From positions 1 to 64,000 of the forward strand of contig OMVJ01000003.1 in assembly GCA_900314495.1 (NCBI GenBank): a DNA stretch of 64,000 bases, written 5' to 3'. Below the pieces are notes generated by a model. It had not been told where the DNA came from. It saw only the letters and a program-made list of their open reading frames with translations, and ran no database searches. Numbering within the stretch: position 1 is the stretch's first letter; every line of letters starts with the position of its first letter. This document shows positions 3,053-40,642 of this stretch, one piece after another. The translations under genes were made by a program, and so were the position numbers. This stretch comes from an uncultured Olsenella sp. Lineage in GTDB: Bacteria; Actinomycetota; Coriobacteriia; Coriobacteriales; Atopobiaceae.

Positions 3053-3727
3053 ATGAAGACCAGAAGCTCTTATCGCAAGCAGCTCGAGAGGCTCGAGGCT
3101 CACGTGCAGGCACTAGGCCAGGGCGTCGTGGACGACGTCCGCGACACCGGCTTTGCCATTGCCGAGGGCAACACCAGCGCTGCTGAGGAGGTCATCGAGG
3201 GCCACCGCGCCTCCGAGCGCCTGCACCGCACCATCGAGGACGCCTGCATGAACATGATGCTGCTGCAGTCCCCGGTTGCCAGCGACCTTCGCCTGATCAC
3301 CGCCACGTTCCGCGTGATCGGTGACCTAGCGCGCATTGACGAGATGGCCTACGAGACCGCCCTGCTCACCCAGGAGATCGACCTCGGCGCCAACGAGAAG
3401 CTGGCACGCGACCTGGGCGACATGTCCCAGCGCGCGGCCGAGATGGTGGAGAAGGCCTGCGATGCCTTCGACGACGTGGACGTTGACGCCGCCAACCAGG
3501 TCTTCCCGCTGGACGACAACGTGGACGCCCTGTACGACAAGGTCAAGGCCGAGGTCGTCGAGCTGCTCCGCAACGGTGAGGAGCCCGTCACGATTGCTCC
3601 CGAGGTGCTGAGCGTTGCCAAGTACTACGAGCGCATGGGCGACCACGCCCAGAGCATTGCCGACTGGGGCATCTTCCGCGCCACCGGCGAGTTCCGTGGC
3701 CGCGCCCTTGGCGAGGACGCCAAGTAG
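3053..3727 (+). CDS. phoU: Phosphate signalling regulator PhoU
   Basis: Cytoplasmic all-helical regulator that links the Pst importer to the PhoR-type kinase and represses phosphate uptake when phosphate is plentiful. It is 224 residues, the family norm. Two PhoU three-helix repeats are visible, each with the acidic metal-binding E/DxxxD pattern (for example RVIGDLARIDEMAYE and YYERMGDHAQSIADW). It lies 3 bases after pstB and before a two-component pair, the classical order. Confidence 0.93.
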   Translation: MKTRSSYRKQLERLEAHVQALGQGVVDDVRDTGFAIAEGNTSAAEEVIEGHRASERLHRTIEDACMNMMLLQSPVASDLRLITATFRVIGDLARIDEMAYETALLTQEIDLGANEKLARDLGDMSQRAAEMVEKACDAFDDVDVDAANQVFPLDDNVDALYDKVKAEVVELLRNGEEPVTIAPEVLSVAKYYERMGDHAQSIADWGIFRATGEFRGRALGEDAK

Positions 3728-30612: not shown

Positions 30613-31110
30613 CTAAGCGGCAAAGACCTGCAGGTGCGTGAGCATGTCGGCTGCTGTCAGTGCGCGTACGTGCGGATTCTGAAGCAGTTTGGCATCGGAC
30701 GTGACGATGTAGTCTGCATTGGCGCGCTCGGCTGCGGCAATCACCAAATTGTCTTCTAGGTCGTTGTGCACCGATCGCAGCTTGCGAGCCATCCAAACGT
30801 CTGCCGCATCCATGGCTATGGGTGTGGCGACGTCGTTGAGTCCCTCTGCAACTTCCCATGCGTTGTTTGTGGACGCTGCCGCACCGTCTTCTGTGAGAGT
30901 GCCCTGCATCTCGCGAGCGTATTCCTTGAATTGCCGTTCCGCTATGTAGAACACATCCTTTATGGTCGTGACCGCATAGGCTAGTTCAACACCGTGCTCT
31001 CTCGCATAGGAGATAAGATCCTCGGCGCTCTTGTGCCCCTTGCGCCACACGATTGCATCGTCGAGCCATACATTGGTATCTAGCACTAGGATTGGGGCCT
31101 TCATACTCAC
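30613..31110 (-). CDS. PIN-domain toxin (ribonuclease) of a toxin-antitoxin pair
   Basis: Predicted Mg-dependent RNase of 165 residues. Acidic catalytic residues are seen in LVLDTNVWLDD near the N-terminus and later in DLEDNLVIAAAE and VTSD. GTG 31110 overlaps the upstream antitoxin stop as GTGA and has GAGGAG five bases upstream; ATG 31104 is the alternative. The tight coupling to a RelB/DinJ-like gene marks a type II toxin-antitoxin module. Toxin activity is inferred from family and context. Confidence 0.85.
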   Translation of the reverse strand: MSMKAPILVLDTNVWLDDAIVWRKGHKSAEDLISYAREHGVELAYAVTTIKDVFYIAERQFKEYAREMQGTLTEDGAAASTNNAWEVAEGLNDVATPIAMDAADVWMARKLRSVHNDLEDNLVIAAAERANADYIVTSDAKLLQNPHVRALTAADMLTHLQVFAA

Positions 31111-31511
31111 TTGTGCTCCTCCCAATACCTTTCGAACAATGCTGCCTCGAGTGCTTCTTCATCGCTTTTCTCATCGGCGAATGGCACGGACGTGTCTATG
31201 CCAAGGTCAGCGAACCTCTTTTGGATAGAGGCGATGCGCTCCCTATGTGCGCGGAGCCCCTCATCTTCTGTAGACGTTATTTCCTTGACGAGGTTGTTCT
31301 GAAGCTCTTGCGTCACGGAGTTTGAAGCTGGTCCTGATAGAAGCGTCCGCAGCTTTTCGGGACTCTTGCGTAGCTTTACCGCAATCTCCCAGAGGGCGCG
31401 GACGGCCTGCGATGGTGTGTAGCCAGCTGCAGCGAGGGCGGCGTCCCCCTCGCGCTTGAGCGTCCGGTCGATGCGGGTGTTCATCTGCACGGCATCCATG
31501 GTGTATGACAT
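31107..31511 (-). CDS. RelB/DinJ-like antitoxin
   Basis: A 134-residue protein. The N-terminus, MNTRIDRTLKREGDAALAAA followed by GYTPSQAVRALWE, is a ribbon-helix-helix DNA-binding module as in RelB/DinJ. The rest is charged and helical and would wrap the toxin. AAAGGAGG lies six bases before ATG 31511. It should bind its own promoter and neutralise the PIN protein encoded downstream. Confidence 0.83.
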   Translation of the reverse strand: MSYTMDAVQMNTRIDRTLKREGDAALAAAGYTPSQAVRALWEIAVKLRKSPEKLRTLLSGPASNSVTQELQNNLVKEITSTEDEGLRAHRERIASIQKRFADLGIDTSVPFADEKSDEEALEAALFERYWEEHK

Positions 31512-31583
31512 GATAACCTCCTTTTGCAGGAAGATATATCTGCTATACATTCTCTGTCAACAGGAGGATTGGGAGAGTTCTAT

Positions 31584-34049
31584 TTACTCCTGCACCTTGA
31601 GTGCCTCGCTCAGTCGCACCTTGCGAATGCGCCGCATGTTCAGCAGGGCCACCAGCACGTAGGCCCCAAACTCCAGTGCCATGGCCTCCAGGTAGGTGGC
31701 GGGCTGGATCCACAGGGGGTAGTTGCCTGGGTAGGACGCCATGGCGAGGCGGAAGAGCCAGATGAGGATGAAGTGGTTCAGCGGCAGGCAGAGAAGGAGT
31801 GAGATGGCAACGGTGATGGTGATCGACCGGATGTAGAGCTTGTCCACCTCGCGGTCGTGGTAGCCAAAGACCTTCATGTAGGCGATGGCCGTGGAGGACC
31901 TGTCGATGACGGTCTTGGTGAGCAGGAAGATTACCACGACGGAGAAGGGCACGGCCAAGATCATGACGAAGACCATGACGCTACCCATGGAGGTCTCCAG
32001 TTGGTTCACCATCTTGAGCATGTCCTCGGGCGTGGTCTCGCCTGCCACGTAGGCCTGGGTGAGCTCCAGGGGCTCGTCGGAGGCGTAGCCGCAGAACCAC
32101 TGGCTGTCTCCGCCCGTCAGGTCGTCGAAGGTCTTGGCAAAGGTCTCGCGGCTCATGTAGACGCCCATGTCGGTCACTTCGCCTACCTCGCCGGAGACGC
32201 TGATGGTGTATGTCTTGTCGGCGAACTTGTCGTAGAGCTGAAGCGCCTGGCCGGCCCCGGTGCCGCACTTGGCGGCCAGGCCGCGCCCCACGCAGATCCT
32301 GCCGTCTGACACGTCCACGTCCCAGTAGCGGGAGCCCTCATCGATGCCGTATACCGTCACGGATTCCTTGGAGTCGCTGTATAGGCGATCGGCCTGGAGC
32401 GTGGTGGCGCTGAACTTCTCTGCCTGCGCCAGCGCCTCCCGGGAGTTGCGGTAGCCGTTGGGCAGATGACCCGAGGGCAGGCTGGGTCCGTCGTCGTCCA
32501 GCGAGAAGAGCATGATGGCGGCCAGTTCCTCCGTGCTCAGGCCCGTGGGCGTGGTGGACGTGGAGCGCAGGTCGAGCGCGTGACCCACCGCCAGCTGGTC
32601 GTCCGTGACGTCTATCTCGAGCGGGGCCTTGAGGGTGTAGAGGTGTTCCGCCACCACGGAGTCGCTCATCTGGCCACCCACGTGCTGGACCAGTGGCATG
32701 AAGCACATGGCAAAGAGAGCGATGAGCATGCAGACGGCGATGCCCAGGAAGAGCACCGCGAAGTGCGAGGCGTTGCGCAGGAAGACGCGCAGGCGGAAGC
32801 GGGCCACGAAGCCCCAGCGTTCGGGCAGGCTGGCGCTGGCCGTGGCGGACTTGCGGCCCACCTCGTGGCGGAGGAAGGCCAGGGGCGTCGCGCGTAGCTT
32901 GCGGCGAATGCCCAGCCAGGAGATGACGATGAGCATGGCCACAGGAAGTACCGTCGTGGCCAAGAAGACGTCCAGCGAGAAGTAGGCGCGGAAGGGCGGC
33001 AGGCTGTAGGAGTTGTAGTACATGTCCTTGCAGGCGTCCATCACCACGAACCTGCCCACGATGGCACCGGCGACCGTCGCGGCCATGCCCACGACCGCGG
33101 GCATGGCCAGGTAGTGGCGCACCAGCTCCCGCTTGCGGTAGCCGCTGGCAAGGAGGGTGCCGATGACGGCCGACTCCTGCTCTATGCTGGCACCCGTCAG
33201 TACCACGAAGACGAAGGCCGAGATGCTGATGATAAGCACGCCCAGGATCTCGTACATGACGGAGTCGCCCTCTATGTCGTCTCCCACAAAGGTCATGGCG
33301 TTGTTCTGGTCGCGGTCCAGCAGCTCGGTGAGGGTGGTTTCGTGGTCGATGAGGGCCTTTGCGACGTCGGACTCCAGGTCGACGCGGCCCTTGGGGGAGA
33401 GGTCCCCGTCGTTTGCGATGGCGGAGTAGTGCCACACGGTGGCGGAGCCCGCCAGGGCGTCGAAGGCCTCTGGCGTCACCTGCGAGGTTGTGAAGGTGAT
33501 GGTGTCGAACATGAGGTCCATGTTGGAGGCTACCAGGGCCTCGTAGTCTGCCAGCACGCACTGGCCGACGATGGCCAGCTGGCGGTCGCCCACCTGCACC
33601 GTGTCCCCAATGGCGAGGTCGTTGTTCTTCATGAACAGGCGGTCGAGGGCAATCTCGTCATCCTCCTGGGGTGCGCGACCTTCAAAGTAGAGGACCTTGT
33701 CGATGTCCGTGCGGTTCTTGTAAAGGCGGACCGTTGCCTCGTGACCCTGGTCCCGGCCAAGCACGGTCAGGGGCACGTCAGCATAGAAGTTCTCGTATAT
33801 GGTGCTTCCGCCGCCTGCCTGTGACGCGGCGTCCAGGGCTTCGTCCGAGGCCTGGAACTGGGTGGCGAAGGAATAGTCCTCCCTGGAGGTGGTGGCCCGC
33901 CAGTCGTCCAGGAGGAGCTGGATGGACCGGGCGGCGTCCAGAAAGCCGCCGACGAAGGCTACGGTTAGGAAGACCATGAAGAAGAGGCCAAGGTAGCGGC
34001 CCACGTTGTTACGGAGCTGGCGGGGAAGCCGGCGTGCGAGGGGAGTCAT
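31584..34049 (-). CDS. FtsX/MacB-type ABC exporter permease
   Basis: Large membrane protein of 821 residues with the fold of two FtsX domains. One membrane span near residue 25 leads into a big extracytoplasmic domain (to about 260), then three spans, a second large outside domain (about 440-680) and final spans. Such permeases work with LolD-type ATPases in peptide resistance, lipoprotein handling or envelope signalling. ATG 34049 has AGGTGG upstream; ATG 34064 would overlap the ATPase gene. Confidence 0.87.
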   Translation of the reverse strand: MTPLARRLPRQLRNNVGRYLGLFFMVFLTVAFVGGFLDAARSIQLLLDDWRATTSREDYSFATQFQASDEALDAASQAGGGSTIYENFYADVPLTVLGRDQGHEATVRLYKNRTDIDKVLYFEGRAPQEDDEIALDRLFMKNNDLAIGDTVQVGDRQLAIVGQCVLADYEALVASNMDLMFDTITFTTSQVTPEAFDALAGSATVWHYSAIANDGDLSPKGRVDLESDVAKALIDHETTLTELLDRDQNNAMTFVGDDIEGDSVMYEILGVLIISISAFVFVVLTGASIEQESAVIGTLLASGYRKRELVRHYLAMPAVVGMAATVAGAIVGRFVVMDACKDMYYNSYSLPPFRAYFSLDVFLATTVLPVAMLIVISWLGIRRKLRATPLAFLRHEVGRKSATASASLPERWGFVARFRLRVFLRNASHFAVLFLGIAVCMLIALFAMCFMPLVQHVGGQMSDSVVAEHLYTLKAPLEIDVTDDQLAVGHALDLRSTSTTPTGLSTEELAAIMLFSLDDDGPSLPSGHLPNGYRNSREALAQAEKFSATTLQADRLYSDSKESVTVYGIDEGSRYWDVDVSDGRICVGRGLAAKCGTGAGQALQLYDKFADKTYTISVSGEVGEVTDMGVYMSRETFAKTFDDLTGGDSQWFCGYASDEPLELTQAYVAGETTPEDMLKMVNQLETSMGSVMVFVMILAVPFSVVVIFLLTKTVIDRSSTAIAYMKVFGYHDREVDKLYIRSITITVAISLLLCLPLNHFILIWLFRLAMASYPGNYPLWIQPATYLEAMALEFGAYVLVALLNMRRIRKVRLSEALKVQE

Positions 34050-34057
34050 ACCACCAC

Positions 34058-34783
34058 CTACCATTCGATCTGGGCGGCGGGCATCACGTGCGGGTTGAGC
34101 TCGTCTTCCACCAGTTGGCCGTCGCGCAGACGCAGGATGTGGTGGGACATGTGGCGAATGGCGTCATTGTGAGTGACTATGACCATGGTGCAGCCAAACT
34201 CGCGGTTTACGTCCTCCAGCAGGCAGAGGATCTCCTTGGAGGTCTTGTAGTCCAAGGCACCGGTGGGCTCGTCGCACAGGAGCAGGCCCGGCCTCTTGGC
34301 CAGGGCGCGGCCGATGGCGCAGCGCTGCTGCTGGCCGCCGGAGACCTGGTTGGGGAACTTGGCGCGGTGCTCCCAAAGGCCCAGCCGGTGCAGGAGGTCG
34401 TCCACGGGGATGGGATCCTTTGACAGGTGGGCCGTGACCTCGATGTTCTCCCGTATGGTGAGGTCTGGCACCAGGTTGTAGAACTGGAACACGAAGCCAA
34501 GCTCGCGCCGGCGGTACTCAACGAGGTCGTTGTCCTTGAGGGTCGTGAGCTCGGTGCCGTTGACGCTTATGGTGCCTGCGTCAGCCGGCTCCAGGCCGCC
34601 CAAAAGGTTGAGGAAGGTTGACTTGCCGGAGCCAGAGGGGCCAAAGAGCACGCAGACCTCCCCGCGCGCGACCGTCACGTTGATGTCGTGCAGGACCTCC
34701 ACGTGGGAGTCGCCTTGGCCGTAGCCCTTGCGCAGATGGCTGATGGTCACGTAGTTGTTGGAATTGGAATTGCTTGTGCTCAT
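34058..34783 (-). CDS. ABC transporter ATPase, LolD/MacB type
   Basis: Cytoplasmic ATPase of 241 residues for the permease downstream. Walker [10 protein letters not shown] is at residues 48-56, signature [15 protein letters not shown], Walker [13 protein letters not shown], and switch His in VIVTHN. The first ten residues are a Ser/Asn tract (STSNSNSNN). The two genes are eight bases apart and form an operon. No sensor kinase pair adjoins, so the substrate is open. Confidence 0.92.
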
Positions 34784-34972: not shown

Positions 34973-35125
34973 GGGATAACCGACAGCTTTCCCCTACATA
35001 GGGGAAAGCGATAGCTTTTCCCAGGGATAACCGACAGGTTTTCCCCGACTGGGCAAACCCGATAGCTTTTCCCAGGGATAACCGACAGCTTTCCCCCACT
35101 TGGGCGGAACAGACAGGTTAATCCT
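34973..35125. repeat. Tandem 51-bp repeat array (2 full units plus a partial)
   Basis: Units start at 34973, 35024 and 35075, each with GGGATAACCGACAG then TTTCCC. The first two end CGATAGCTTTTCCCA; the third diverges after about 30 bases. No gene overlaps; spacing and internal similarity exclude a CRISPR. Together with the 24-bp pair it fills most of the 508-base gap between the ABC exporter and the VWA operon. Confidence 0.8.
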
Positions 35126-35291: not shown

Positions 35292-36998
35292 ATGGGGAAC
35301 AGGGTGTCTGCAAGGCTGCGCGCGGGGCTGCGGTGGCTGGCTGCCGTTGCCGCGTGCCTGTGCATGGTGGCGTTCGTCTCGGGCTGCTCAAGCGGAGGCA
35401 GCGACGAGCCCTCTTCTCAGGCGCAAACCCAGGCGTCTTCCTCCAAGGAGCAGACCTTCACCCCCTCGGGCGACAAGGACACCGGAACCGTCATCACGAT
35501 TGCCTCTGGGTCGGAGAACCGCGAGGCGGCCGCTGCCATCCAGAAGGCGGCTGACGAGGCAGGCGTCACCATCAACATGGAGTACATGGGCTCCGTGGAC
35601 ATCAAGAACGTCCTGGCGGAAGGCGCCTCAGACTACGATGCCGTTTGGCCCGCCAGCTCCATCTGGATCTCCATGGGTGACACCCAGCACCTGGTAAAGG
35701 ACGAGGAGTCCACCTCCACCACGCCGGTGGTCTTGGGCGTGAAGAAGTCCAAGGCCCAGGAGCTGGGCTGGCTGGGCAGCGACGGCTCGGCGTCCGTCAC
35801 CACGGCGGACATCGTCAAGGCCGTGCAGGACGGCAAGCTGACCTTCGCCATGACCAGCGCCACGCAGTCCAACTCCGGTGCCTCGGCCTACCTGGCCTTC
35901 CTCACCAGCCTTGCCGGCAAGGACCAGCCGCTCACGGCCGAAGACCTTGCCAACCAGGACCTGCAGAACAGCATGAAGGCGCTGCTCTCGGGCGTGGACC
36001 GGTCTTCCGGCTCGTCCGACTGGCTCAAGGACCTGGTTCTCAAGGACCCGGATGCCCACGATGCCATGGTCAACTACGAGTCCATTGTCATCCAGACCAA
36101 CAAGGAGCTGACGGCCCAAAGCAAGGAACCGCTGATCGTTGTGTACCCCAAGGACGGAATCGCCGTCTCTGACTCCCCGCTTGGCTACATTGATCACGGC
36201 CAGGGCAAGGAGGAGGACTTCGAGAACTTCCAGGCTGCGCTGGCATCCGACGACGCCAAGCTGGAGCTGGAGCGCGTGGGCAGGCGTACGGGCCTTGGCG
36301 GCAAGCTGGCCTTTGCCGACGATGACCAGGTGAAGCAGGCCTTCAACGCCGAGTGGGGCATCGTCGCCGACGGCAGCGTGCTGAAGACCGCGCCGCTTCC
36401 TGCCGCGGACGTGACGGAGCAGGCCCTGCAGCTCTACCAGTCGGCCCTGCGCAAGGCGGCCTACACCATTTGGGTGGTGGACTACTCCGGCTCCATGCAC
36501 GGCGAGGGCAAGAACGGCGTGACCCAGGGCCTGAGCCTGGCGCTGGATCCCACGCAGGCCGAGCAGTACATGATTCAGCCTGCCGAGGGAGACGTGAACA
36601 TCCTCATTCCCTTCAGCAGCGACGTGCTGGACACCGCGGTTGCCGACGGCCCCAACACCGCCGACCTGCTGCAGCTAGCGCAGACCACGGACGCCAGCGG
36701 TGGCACCAACATCTATGCCGGCTTGGAGGCCGCCTTGCAGATGCTGCCGCCGGATGACGGTTCCTGCACCACGGCCATCGTGCTCATGACGGACGGCATG
36801 TCCGATGACATGGAGAAGGACCAGTTCTTCGAGGATTACCAGGCCCTGGGCCGCGACATCCCCATCTTCCCCATCATGTTCGGCGAAGCGGACGACGAGC
36901 AACTGGAGCCCCTGGCGGACCTCTCCAACGGCAAGATGTTCGACGGCCGCAATGGGGACCTGGCTGCCACCTTCCGCACGGTGAAGGGTTACAACTGA
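35292..36998 (+). CDS. Lipoprotein with substrate-binding-like and VWA domains
   Basis: Secreted lipoprotein of 568 residues. Signal peptide with lipobox VSGC gives lipidated Cys32. A periplasmic-binding-protein-like region (about 60-370, TVITIASGSENREAAAAI, SATQSNSGASAYLAFLTSL) is followed by a von Willebrand A domain. Its metal site is intact: DYSGS at 397, GGTN and LMTDG. The fusion suggests ligand sensing plus adhesion or assembly outside the cell. ATG 35292 has AAAGGCAGG upstream. First gene of a five-gene operon ending with telA; the stop overlaps the next start. Confidence 0.85.
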   Translation: MGNRVSARLRAGLRWLAAVAACLCMVAFVSGCSSGGSDEPSSQAQTQASSSKEQTFTPSGDKDTGTVITIASGSENREAAAAIQKAADEAGVTINMEYMGSVDIKNVLAEGASDYDAVWPASSIWISMGDTQHLVKDEESTSTTPVVLGVKKSKAQELGWLGSDGSASVTTADIVKAVQDGKLTFAMTSATQSNSGASAYLAFLTSLAGKDQPLTAEDLANQDLQNSMKALLSGVDRSSGSSDWLKDLVLKDPDAHDAMVNYESIVIQTNKELTAQSKEPLIVVYPKDGIAVSDSPLGYIDHGQGKEEDFENFQAALASDDAKLELERVGRRTGLGGKLAFADDDQVKQAFNAEWGIVADGSVLKTAPLPAADVTEQALQLYQSALRKAAYTIWVVDYSGSMHGEGKNGVTQGLSLALDPTQAEQYMIQPAEGDVNILIPFSSDVLDTAVADGPNTADLLQLAQTTDASGGTNIYAGLEAALQMLPPDDGSCTTAIVLMTDGMSDDMEKDQFFEDYQALGRDIPIFPIMFGEADDEQLEPLADLSNGKMFDGRNGDLAATFRTVKGYN

Positions 36999-37654
36999 TG
37001 AGCATCCTCTTGGGCATAGTCGCAGGCCTGGCACTTGGCGTTGGCGCAATAACACTGGTCCCCGGGGTGCCCGGCATCGTCGTAGGCGTCGTTGTGGCGG
37101 CTCTGGGCTACGTGGGCGTCTCCAGCCTCACCACGCGCGAGCGAAGGTTGGGTGGCGTGGCGGAGTCCCTTCTGCCAAACGGGGAGCAGGTCTCGCGCAC
37201 CATCGACGCCGGCATTGGGCTGCGCAAGGCACTGGAGAAGGACGCGCGACACACGAACGATGCGCAGGTGAGGGACGCCATCCAGTCCCTGTGCGACCAG
37301 CTCGACAAGCTGGTGCGCTACGTGCAGGAGAATCCCGGTGCCAACTCGCAGCTCTCGCATGTGGTCAACGTGTACGGCGACCAGCTGCGCGGCCTGGTGG
37401 ACAACTGGGTTGGGCTGGAGCTCTCTGGCAGCAAGCGACGCATAGGTGCCAGCAAGGCGGACCTGCTGGTTGCCCTGCAAGGTGCCACCGCTGCTATTGA
37501 AGACGCGCTGGGCGAGGCAACGGACGCCCGCGCGGCGCAGATTGCAGCCGCAAGTGACGCCATCAAGCGCCTTGCCGCAATGGATGGCTTGGGCCCGGGC
37601 GCGGCACCGAAGGTGGACGACCAAACCGGCGGCACCACTGCCGCTGGCAAGTAG
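36998..37654 (+). CDS. XpaC-like membrane protein (first copy)
   Basis: A 218-residue protein with N-terminal hydrophobic spans (about 1-45) and a helical cytoplasmic domain similar to the XpaC family, named for 5-bromo-4-chloroindolyl phosphate hydrolysis. Its end, AAASDAIKRLAAMDGLG, matches the paralogue at 38839. It starts on the last base of the previous gene (TGATG). XpaC and TelA genes often occur together; the biochemical role of XpaC is not established. Confidence 0.75.
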   Translation: MSILLGIVAGLALGVGAITLVPGVPGIVVGVVVAALGYVGVSSLTTRERRLGGVAESLLPNGEQVSRTIDAGIGLRKALEKDARHTNDAQVRDAIQSLCDQLDKLVRYVQENPGANSQLSHVVNVYGDQLRGLVDNWVGLELSGSKRRIGASKADLLVALQGATAAIEDALGEATDARAAQIAAASDAIKRLAAMDGLGPGAAPKVDDQTGGTTAAGK

Positions 37655-37662
37655 ACGGGGGT

Positions 37663-38766
37663 ATGGGTATGCGCATGAGCAAGAGTAAGCTCATTGGTCT
37701 CATTGCGGTGGTGGCCGTTGTTGTCATCTTTGGCGGGGTCATGGCATGGCGGTCCGCCCAGCCAGAGCCTGAGGTTCCCGCGGCGCCGGTGGAGGCCACG
37801 GCGGTCAACGGCTACCTGGGCGGCGAGAAGATTAGCCTCTTCGACGACGAGGAGTTCAAGCAGCTTGCCTCGGACGCCAACCTCAGCGTGCAGTACCGCA
37901 AGGCTGGCTCGCTGGCCATGATGGACGCGGACCAAACTGGTATGGACTACCTCTTCCCCTCGTCCCGCTCGGCCGTTGAGTACGGCGCCAGCAAGGGCGT
38001 GAAGAGCGCGGACCAGGACATCGTCTTCAACTCGCCCATTGTGGTATACACCTACCGCGACGTGGCGGACGCCATGGTGGGGTCTGGCATCATGAGCAAG
38101 GACGGCGACGTGTACCGGCTGGACACGGGGGCCGCGGTGCAGGCTATGGTGGACAACAAGACCTGGCAGGACCTTGGCTGGGCGGATGGCTACGGCCAGT
38201 TCCGCATAGACTCCACGGATCCCACCAAGTCCAACTCCGGCAACGAGTGGGCGGCCCTGGTGGCAACCATGCTCAACGGGGGCCAGCCTGCCACGGCAGA
38301 CAGCGTGCAGCGCGACGCAGACAAGATTCGTACCATCTTCCAGAAGTCTGGCTGGATGGAGACCTCCTCAGAGGACTCCTTCAAGCAGTTCCTGACGCTG
38401 GGGGAGGGCTCCAAGCCCATGATGGTGGGCTACGAGTCCCAGGTGCTGGACTTGGCAGCCAACCAGCCCAACATCTACACCCAGGCTAAGGACGAGCTGG
38501 TGGTGGCCTACCTCACGCCCACCGTCTGGTCCACCCACGTGATCATGCCGCTGGACGAGAACGGCGTGAAGCTGCGCGACTTCCTCAAGAGCGACGGGGT
38601 GCAGAAGCTGGCGTGGGAGAAGCACGGCTTCCGCACGGCCTCCTACACGGGCACGGACTCCGTCTCGCGCTTCAACGTGCCGGGTACCGTGGACAAGATC
38701 ACCTCCGTGGTGGAGCTGCCCGACACCAACGCAATGAACCGCCTGATTGAGGTCCTTGGCAGTTAG
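37663..38766 (+). CDS. Membrane-anchored substrate-binding-like protein
   Basis: A 367-residue protein with one N-terminal membrane span (about 9-29) and an extracytoplasmic domain with the build of a type 2 binding protein. The segment DSTDPTKSNSGNEWAALVA parallels SATQSNSGASAYLAFL in the VWA lipoprotein, so the two are distantly related. No lipobox and no ABC permease are present. It lies between two XpaC-like genes in the telA operon. Ligand unknown. Confidence 0.75.
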   Translation: MGMRMSKSKLIGLIAVVAVVVIFGGVMAWRSAQPEPEVPAAPVEATAVNGYLGGEKISLFDDEEFKQLASDANLSVQYRKAGSLAMMDADQTGMDYLFPSSRSAVEYGASKGVKSADQDIVFNSPIVVYTYRDVADAMVGSGIMSKDGDVYRLDTGAAVQAMVDNKTWQDLGWADGYGQFRIDSTDPTKSNSGNEWAALVATMLNGGQPATADSVQRDADKIRTIFQKSGWMETSSEDSFKQFLTLGEGSKPMMVGYESQVLDLAANQPNIYTQAKDELVVAYLTPTVWSTHVIMPLDENGVKLRDFLKSDGVQKLAWEKHGFRTASYTGTDSVSRFNVPGTVDKITSVVELPDTNAMNRLIEVLGS

Positions 38767-38838
38767 GAGGGTACAAGCGCCCCCAGTCTGTGGGAATATG
38801 TGCAAAGAAGCACGAATGAGCAGTCAGGGGGATGAGAA

Positions 38839-39438
38839 TTGATTGGCGTCGTGGCGGGAATAGTGGCCGTGGTAGCAGTCGTTCTTATAGTCGCAGGGGT
38901 GAGGCGTCGCAGGATGGGGCTTGCCGCGGTGGCGGCTCCGCTCCTGCCGAATGAGGACGCGGTCCAGCGGTCCGTCTCCGAGGCCGCGGAGTTGGAGGGC
39001 AGGCTGCGTGGAGACGCGTACAACATCCACGACCAAGAGGTCGTCGCCGCGATTCTCAAGTTCTGCGGCGAGCTGGAGAAGCTCATCTCGTACGTGGAGA
39101 AGAACCCCTTCGAGCTCAGCTCGCTCACGCACGTGGTAAACATCTATGCGGACCAATGTCTGAGGGCGGCCGACAACTGGGTGGAGCTGGAGGGCTCGCG
39201 CAGCGGTCGCACGGCGGAGGTCAAGCCCGACTTGCTCACGGCGCTGGACGGCGCCAACGCCGCGGTGGAAAGCGAGCTGGGCAACGCGACGAGTGGCCGC
39301 GCCGGCCAGATTGAGGCCGCGAGCGAGGCCATCAAGCGCCTGGCTGCCATGGACGGCTACGGCGTGGGCAGCGCGCCCAAGGTGGAGGATGTGACCGCGC
39401 CGCCCGCAGCCAATGCGGACGAGGCGGGAGCAGACTAG
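38839..39438 (+). CDS. XpaC-like membrane protein (second copy)
   Basis: A 199-residue paralogue of the protein at 36998, with an N-terminal membrane span (about 2-20) and a helical domain. The C-terminal EAASEAIKRLAAMDGYG is nearly the same as in the first copy. The start is TTG 38839, with AGGGGGA eight bases upstream; no ATG fits. It is followed 43 bases later by telA. Confidence 0.75.
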   Translation: MIGVVAGIVAVVAVVLIVAGVRRRRMGLAAVAAPLLPNEDAVQRSVSEAAELEGRLRGDAYNIHDQEVVAAILKFCGELEKLISYVEKNPFELSSLTHVVNIYADQCLRAADNWVELEGSRSGRTAEVKPDLLTALDGANAAVESELGNATSGRAGQIEAASEAIKRLAAMDGYGVGSAPKVEDVTAPPAANADEAGAD

Positions 39439-39481
39439 CATAGGCACACGTTTGCAGGAAAACTGCCGACAGGAGGATCTT

Positions 39482-40642
39482 ATGAGTGACCAGGAGAAGA
39501 ACAACCAGTCCCCAGCCATCACGCTCGAGTCGCTGATGGCGGCAAACGCCGCGGCCACCAAGGAGGAGGCCGCGCTCGTCCCCGTGGAGGAGACGGAGGC
39601 GGCCGTCGTTCAGGCCGTGCAGCAGCTGACCCCGGAGGACCAGCAGAAGGCAACGGAGCTTGCCACCAAAATCAACTTCGCCCAGCAGGGCATTGAGCTC
39701 AACTACGGCGCAGACGCTCAGAAGGGCCTGGCTGCCTTCTCGGAGACCGTGCTTGCCAAGGTCAGCAGCAAGGACACCGGTGAGGCTGGCCAGCTGCTGC
39801 GTGAGCTGCTCACCACCGTGGACGACAGCAACCTCTCCGGCGTGAAGAAGCTGCCCATCATCGGCCAGGTGGTCATGAAGGTGGACGAGATTCGCCGCGA
39901 GTACCAGAAGGTCACCCCCCAGGTGGACGAGATCGTGGGTAAGCTGGAACGCAACCAGGCGCAGATGGTCACGGACATTGCCATGTACGACAAGATGTAC
40001 GACCAGTCCGTTGCCCAGTACAAGCAGCTGAAGATTTACGTGGCGGCCGGCCGCCAAGCGCTGGCGGACTTCCGCCGTGACCAGCTGCCGGCGCTGGAGC
40101 AGCAAGCCAACGCATCCGCCGACCCCATGGCCAGCCAGGTGCTCAAGGACTTCAAGGACAAGCTGGACCGCTTTGACAAGCACCTGGACGACCTTGACCG
40201 CGTGAGCGTGGTTGCCCTGCAGTCCTGCCCGCAGATCAAGATCCTGCAGAACGCGGACAAGACCGTGGTGGACAAGATCAGCACCACCATCAACCTGACC
40301 ATCCCCCTGTGGAAGAGCCAGATGGTCATCGCCCTTGGCCTGGAGAACCAGCGTCGCGCGCTAGAGCTGCAGAACGCCGTGGACGAGACCACCAACAAGC
40401 TCATTCGCCAGAACGCGGAGAAGCTGCATCAGGGTGCTGTGGCCGCGGAGAAGGCCAACCAGCGCGGCGTCGTGGACGTTGACACCCTGCAGCACGCCAA
40501 CGACGAGCTCATTGCCACCATCAAGGAGACGATTGAGATTCAGCAGGAGGGCCGCAAGCAGCGCCAGGACGCCCAGGTCAAGATGCGCAAGATGGAAGGC
40601 GACCTCAAGACGGCCCTTCTGGAGCAGGCCAACAAGATGTAA
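39482..40642 (+). CDS. telA: TelA-family protein
   Basis: Cytoplasmic, coiled-coil-rich protein of 386 residues of the TelA/KlaA family, annotated as toxic anion (tellurite) resistance. Family features include ADPMASQVLKDFKDKLDRFD and LTIPLWKSQMVIALGLENQ, followed by VDETTNKLIRQNAEKL. CAGGAGGA precedes ATG 39482. The tellurite link was made with a few plasmid genes; in this operon with VWA and XpaC partners an envelope-stress role is as likely. A terminator hairpin follows. Confidence 0.88.
   Translation: MSDQEKNNQSPAITLESLMAANAAATKEEAALVPVEETEAAVVQAVQQLTPEDQQKATELATKINFAQQGIELNYGADAQKGLAAFSETVLAKVSSKDTGEAGQLLRELLTTVDDSNLSGVKKLPIIGQVVMKVDEIRREYQKVTPQVDEIVGKLERNQAQMVTDIAMYDKMYDQSVAQYKQLKIYVAAGRQALADFRRDQLPALEQQANASADPMASQVLKDFKDKLDRFDKHLDDLDRVSVVALQSCPQIKILQNADKTVVDKISTTINLTIPLWKSQMVIALGLENQRRALELQNAVDETTNKLIRQNAEKLHQGAVAAEKANQRGVVDVDTLQHANDELIATIKETIEIQQEGRKQRQDAQVKMRKMEGDLKTALLEQANKM

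Follow-up and report, generated by a model that had tools for sequence, protein, structure and literature searches.

The five genes at positions 35292-40642 of the window (the whole stretch of 64,000 nucleotides analysed here) form an operon whose products appear to be layered across the cell envelope, with two SBP domains and one VWA domain on the outside, TelA on the cytoplasmic side and XpaC in the membrane between them. Four of its parts, SBP-VWA, XpaC, SBP2 and TelA, recur as a cassette in Actinomycetota and Clostridia, and gene trees indicate that its members are passed on together, whether by inheritance or by transfer. The likeliest reading, to which we give an even chance, is that the operon extends the XpaC-TelA envelope-stress module by an external head that senses anions.

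Operon layout

All five reading frames are on the plus strand and are tightly packed. The SBP-VWA lipoprotein gene (35292..36998, 568 amino acids) overlaps that of XpaC-1 (36998..37654, 218 amino acids) by one base, in the motif TGATG, and SBP2 (37663..38766, 367 amino acids) starts 8 bases after XpaC-1. XpaC-2 (38839..39438, 199 amino acids), which has a TTG start, follows 72 bases after SBP2, and TelA (39482..40642, 386 amino acids), with AGGAGG upstream, lies another 43 bases on. An earlier reading of this DNA from its sequence alone had described such an operon at these positions, with the same overlap and spacings and with parts outside, in the membrane and inside; the reading frames confirm the former, and the predicted features of the proteins support the latter.

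Several other elements surround the operon. At 34973-35125, a 51-nt unit is repeated three times head-to-tail (copies 75 to 78% alike, each partly palindromic), the array ending 166 bases before the SBP-VWA gene. Another exact copy of the core of this unit, together with degenerate copies, is found at about position 3613 of G000:C41, between a VWA surface protein gene and a YhgE/Pip-like gene. Divergent from the operon are genes for an ABC ATPase and an 826-amino-acid FtsX-type permease of the efflux or antimicrobial-resistance type (31584-34783, minus strand), which were not seen next to the operon in genomes G006 or G042. A pair encoding a RelB-like antitoxin and a PIN-domain toxin lies at 30613-31550, on the minus strand. 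Downstream of TelA, the segment 40889-41428 (plus strand) holds a DUF3791 gene (E 3.5e-20) and a second short frame that, by reading, is an apparent relative.

XpaC and TelA

The N-terminus of XpaC-1 is hydrophobic, read as two membrane segments, and is followed by a cytoplasmic helical domain; XpaC-2 has one hydrophobic segment, the first of those in XpaC-1 being missing. Neither protein reaches the PF10112 cut-off of 29.8 bits (XpaC-2, 23.0 bits, 8.9e-5; XpaC-1, 12.8 bits, E 0.11), and a Bifidobacterium XpaC orthologue stops at 29.4 bits. Despite these weak Pfam scores the XpaC label holds, because a profile built from XpaC-1, XpaC-2 and their orthologues (A8) matches, with E from 1e-6 to 1e-12, the XpaC proteins that adjoin TelA in other genera. 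Together with the 48% identity between the two proteins, this profile search bears out the initial description of two paralogous XpaC-like membrane proteins. XpaC-1 is nearest to the single XpaC of G006 and G042 (49 to 52% identity), and among the 140 family genomes searched two short XpaC genes are present in the window's genome only. These comparisons indicate that XpaC-1 is the conserved XpaC of the set and XpaC-2 a lineage-specific duplicate.

TelA belongs to PF05816 (1e-93, 314.5 bits for a cut-off of 30) and has no membrane segment, in agreement with the cytoplasmic TelA proposed from the sequence. Its model is all-helical, with two very long helices (residues 134-200 and 215-309), and is weak (pLDDT 68.8). 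The fold search returned long-helix look-alikes alone (F-BAR, ClyA, coiled coils), and since none of them fell under E 0.001 we make no claim on the fold of TelA.

An XpaC-like membrane protein encoded beside TelA (PF05816) is the arrangement of the XpaC-TelA pair of B. subtilis, L. lactis and Listeria. In B. subtilis, xpaC-yaaN (telA) is part of the core sigma-W regulon (PMC3498285). In L. lactis, the genes for an XpaC-like protein and TelA1 are up 10.3-fold and 3.4-fold, respectively, in the CesSR-linked response to membrane-protein overproduction (PMC3139573). A telA mutant of L. monocytogenes has 4-fold higher susceptibility to nisin and 2-fold higher susceptibility to tellurite, according to the statement in PMC12791056 that cites Collins 2010. 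Compared with this pair, the operon adds two sulfate-receptor-like extracytoplasmic proteins, one of them fused to a VWA domain, and its XpaC is short and strongly divergent.

TelA and a VWA protein are also found together in Ter systems (TerC/TerD/TerF-VWA plus TelA), for which the passage of PMC7824862 citing Anantharaman 2012 gives a predicted sub-membrane role and a proposed block on the entry of phages or xenobiotics. The operon might encode a Ter-type defence in which TelA acts as effector and the outer proteins as detectors. We consider this quite improbable. No Ter gene, TerC and TerD included, was recognised on reading the neighbourhoods compared, and the operon's VWA domain differs from the VWA protein in that description in being exported and SBP-fused. 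Moreover, a search with PADLOC for anti-phage components gave only a weak coiled-coil match to ZorA, covering 38 residues of XpaC-2 (E 0.0056), and hence no accepted component.

The two SBP-like proteins

SBP-VWA starts with a signal helix and a lipobox (VSGC), followed by an SBP domain (residues 63 to 390 approximately) and a VWA domain (about 388 to 568). It matches SBP_bac_11 (1.1e-14), VWA_3 (6e-9) and VWA_2 (1.5e-7) in Pfam, and NCBIfam contributed nothing beyond VWA for the proteins of the operon. The VWA metal site had been described as intact, and it is: all MIDAS residues are present (D397-x-S399-x-S401, T472 and D501) and are invariant in 33 of 33 homologues.

The AlphaFold2 model of SBP-VWA is confident (pLDDT 89.5, pTM 0.85), and comparison of its SBP domain by VIA-align 2 places it within the fold cluster of sulfate-binding proteins. 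The best matches are 5um2 (Z 26.1) and 1sbp (Z 25.9), with 282 to 288 residues aligned at an rmsd of 3.5, followed by a thiamin-binding protein (Z 24.6), SubI of M. tuberculosis (23.9) and others. As the sulfate-binding proteins score only 1 to 4 Z units above the next families, the comparison favours an anion as ligand without proving it. The domain was placed by fold comparison only, sequence searches of the PDB with phmmer and hmmsearch having yielded no useful relative either for it or for SBP2. Sbp and SubI serve type I ABC importers, whereas the operon has no permease or ATPase, and its SBP-like proteins carry a VWA fusion or a membrane anchor.

SBP2 carries an SBP domain behind a single N-terminal membrane anchor and has no VWA domain. 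Its match to SBP_bac_11 (4.9e-5) is slightly below the cut-off, and hhalign aligns it with SBP-VWA at 98.6% over 249 columns, which indicates that the SBP domains of the two proteins are paralogous. The two had first been presented as different binding-protein-like subunits; the likeness to binding proteins stands, but they are relatives within one family. The pocket-like loops of SBP2 (SNS, SS and YES) are conserved in 17 homologues and are equivalent to conserved loops of SBP-VWA. In Bifidobacterium saimiriisciurei, a second, lone copy of SBP2 (L093, 14467-15552) lies beside a gene for a Fur-family regulator and another that reads as a ZnuA-like metal-binding SBP, which hints at a connection with metals.

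The main rival to the sensing module named at the outset is a role in assembly or adhesion. The SBP-like domains and the VWA domain would then hold a wall polymer or a partner, XpaC and TelA would provide a sub-membrane scaffold, and signalling would play no part. VWA domains with a MIDAS are classic adhesion modules, scaffold and adhesion proteins are among the closest VWA structures to that of SBP-VWA, and the long helices predicted for TelA agree with the published proposal that it forms sub-membrane structures (PMC7824862). However, a pure scaffold does not need the pocket-like loops conserved in both SBP types, and the known regulation of XpaC-TelA is driven by stress. We regard such an anchoring machine as doubtful, although less so than a Ter-type defence.

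Conservation and gene orders

Among 140 species genomes of the window's GTDB family, TelA was found in 79, a near-full-length SBP-VWA in 51 and SBP2 in 21. In all 51 genomes that have SBP-VWA, TelA lies on the same contig, at most 4.4 kb away, a linkage that is more than chance. SBP2 is within 2.5 kb of SBP-VWA in 20 of 21 cases, the remaining one (G098) being a partial match with stops.

Three gene orders contain both SBP-like proteins. The first, SBPVWA-XpaC-SBP2-TelA, is that of the window, of G006 (L033) and G042 (L034), and of family f3 (L159, L160, L161 and L165). It is shared by Bifidobacterium cebidarum, ramosum, saimiriisciurei, vansinderenii, amazonense, rousetti and saguinibicoloris, and by three genomes of the class Clostridia (L153, L155 and L156). 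The second, SBP2-SBPVWA-membrane protein-TelA, occurs in genus g33, Olsenella sp. An188, an Atopobiaceae MAG and Brachybacterium equifaecis; G270 shows SBP2-SBPVWA-TelA, the slot in between not being identified. The third, SBP2-TelA-SBPVWA-membrane protein, was seen in four large actinomycete genomes of one genus (L174, L175, L177 and L178). A simpler form, with a TM-anchored SBP-VWA and no SBP2, is found in genera g30 and g35, in G041 and in Eubacterium sp. RUI100. Profile comparison gave no support for homology between the short XpaC and the same-slot membrane proteins of g33 and Brachybacterium, or those of g30, g35 and Eubacterium, so that we take the proteins in this slot, in all forms but the first, as positional counterparts only. 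Of the loci from a contig scan with one MIDAS-centred pattern, the low-scoring ones, mostly unrelated VWA proteins, were left out; the many VWA-only matches of a class-level search (A1) were likewise disregarded.

Loci with a TM-anchored SBP-VWA beside XpaC-like genes, in Clostridia and other genera of the family, resemble the operon in their MIDAS, their membrane protein and, usually, TelA. They differ from it in that the second SBP is absent, and TelA is not adjacent in several Clostridia. The latter loci are L146-L152 and L157, where an XpaC-like membrane gene adjoins SBP-VWA wherever the neighbours were read. In L048 and L051 (genus g30), two tandem SBP-VWA genes precede TelA, as if the second copy stood in place of SBP2.

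The set thus recurs far beyond the strain. Since, among the family genomes searched, two short XpaC genes occur together in the window's genome alone, the conserved unit is one of four parts with a local duplication, and the five-part set of the sequence-only reading has to be reduced by its second XpaC. That reading also took the full set to be undescribed next to the known XpaC-TelA pair. Searches of the open-licence literature turned up no account of the four-part set, in keeping with that view for four parts rather than five.

Co-inheritance of the cassette

For each of the four proteins a tree was built, on 22 loci (on 17 in the case of XpaC), the SBP2 tree excluding SBP-VWA genes. All four recover the same five groups, with pairwise Spearman correlations of 0.91 to 0.96 that were equalled in 0 of 1000 permutations, and all four conflict with taxonomy in the same way: the window's version groups with Bifidobacterium, which belongs to another class, and genus g33, from the window's own family, groups with Brachybacterium. 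This agreement, conflicts included, points to a cassette that moves as a unit, and species history alone would be insufficient to produce the same conflict in four genes. Correlation between trees would prove little on its own, but the case gains from the shared conflict and from the reshuffling of the gene order.

No evidence for an importer

An ABC permease is absent from every operon compared, and the operon has neither a linked or dedicated permease nor an ATPase, the components of a type I ABC importer. We also took a census of permeases in twelve genomes by a BPD_transp_1 search. G611 (1.7 Mb) and G630 (1.2 Mb), two Clostridia genomes, have the full operon and one type I permease locus each, an ATPase-permease-SBP set whose own SBP is NMT1/THI5-like by reading; in G611 the permease is apparently split into two frames. 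The main caveat is that the completeness of G611 and G630 is not stated. A permease found some 2 kb away from SBP2 in genus g33 likewise belongs to an operon that includes an SBP for it.

The two SBPs could still be orphan subunits that hand an oxyanion over to an ABC permease whose gene lies elsewhere, given the sulfate-binding protein fold of the SBP domain and the many permeases in most of the genomes. This scenario is strongly disfavoured, and we give it hardly any weight: the only type I permease of G611 and G630 has its own SBP, the nearest permease among those listed on the window's contig is some 28 kb off, and the VWA fusion and the constant linkage to TelA would be left unexplained. 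It is therefore very unlikely that the SBPs are importer subunits, as had been argued at first from the lack of a permease.

Possible function

A role in envelope sensing or assembly would fit the published regulation of XpaC-TelA by envelope stress, a link that is carried over by analogy from XpaC-TelA pairs lacking SBPs. If the operon is an extension of such a pair, the two SBP-like receptors may recognise a small anion, or else an anionic group, at the surface of the cell, and closure on the ligand, or the VWA Mg2+ site, could alter the contact between SBP-VWA and SBP2. XpaC would relay the change across the membrane, and TelA, a long helical protein, might assemble or rearrange beneath it, thereby shielding the membrane from cationic peptides or toxic oxyanions. 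The weak TelA model, the Clostridia SBP-VWA genes without adjacent TelA, and the XpaC slot that is unmatched in two arrangements speak against an extended XpaC-TelA module.

With less assurance, we may also propose that the operon encodes a distinct transmembrane sensing or defence complex, in which two SBP receptors and a VWA domain are coupled by XpaC to a TelA scaffold, without transporter, kinase or chemoreceptor, as a cassette spread through Actinomycetota and Bacillota. This is on balance unlikely, if slightly less so than the anchoring machine considered above.

The widespread annotation of TelA, 'toxic anion resistance', comes with no mechanism, and the operon's link between TelA and external anion-receptor-like proteins provides a testable reason for that name. 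The operon looks like a little-studied system for sensing or protection at the cell surface, offering a route from a surface ligand to a sub-membrane protein. Carriers of the set include Bifidobacterium, gut Coriobacteriia and actinomycetes with large genomes, and some of these can be manipulated genetically.
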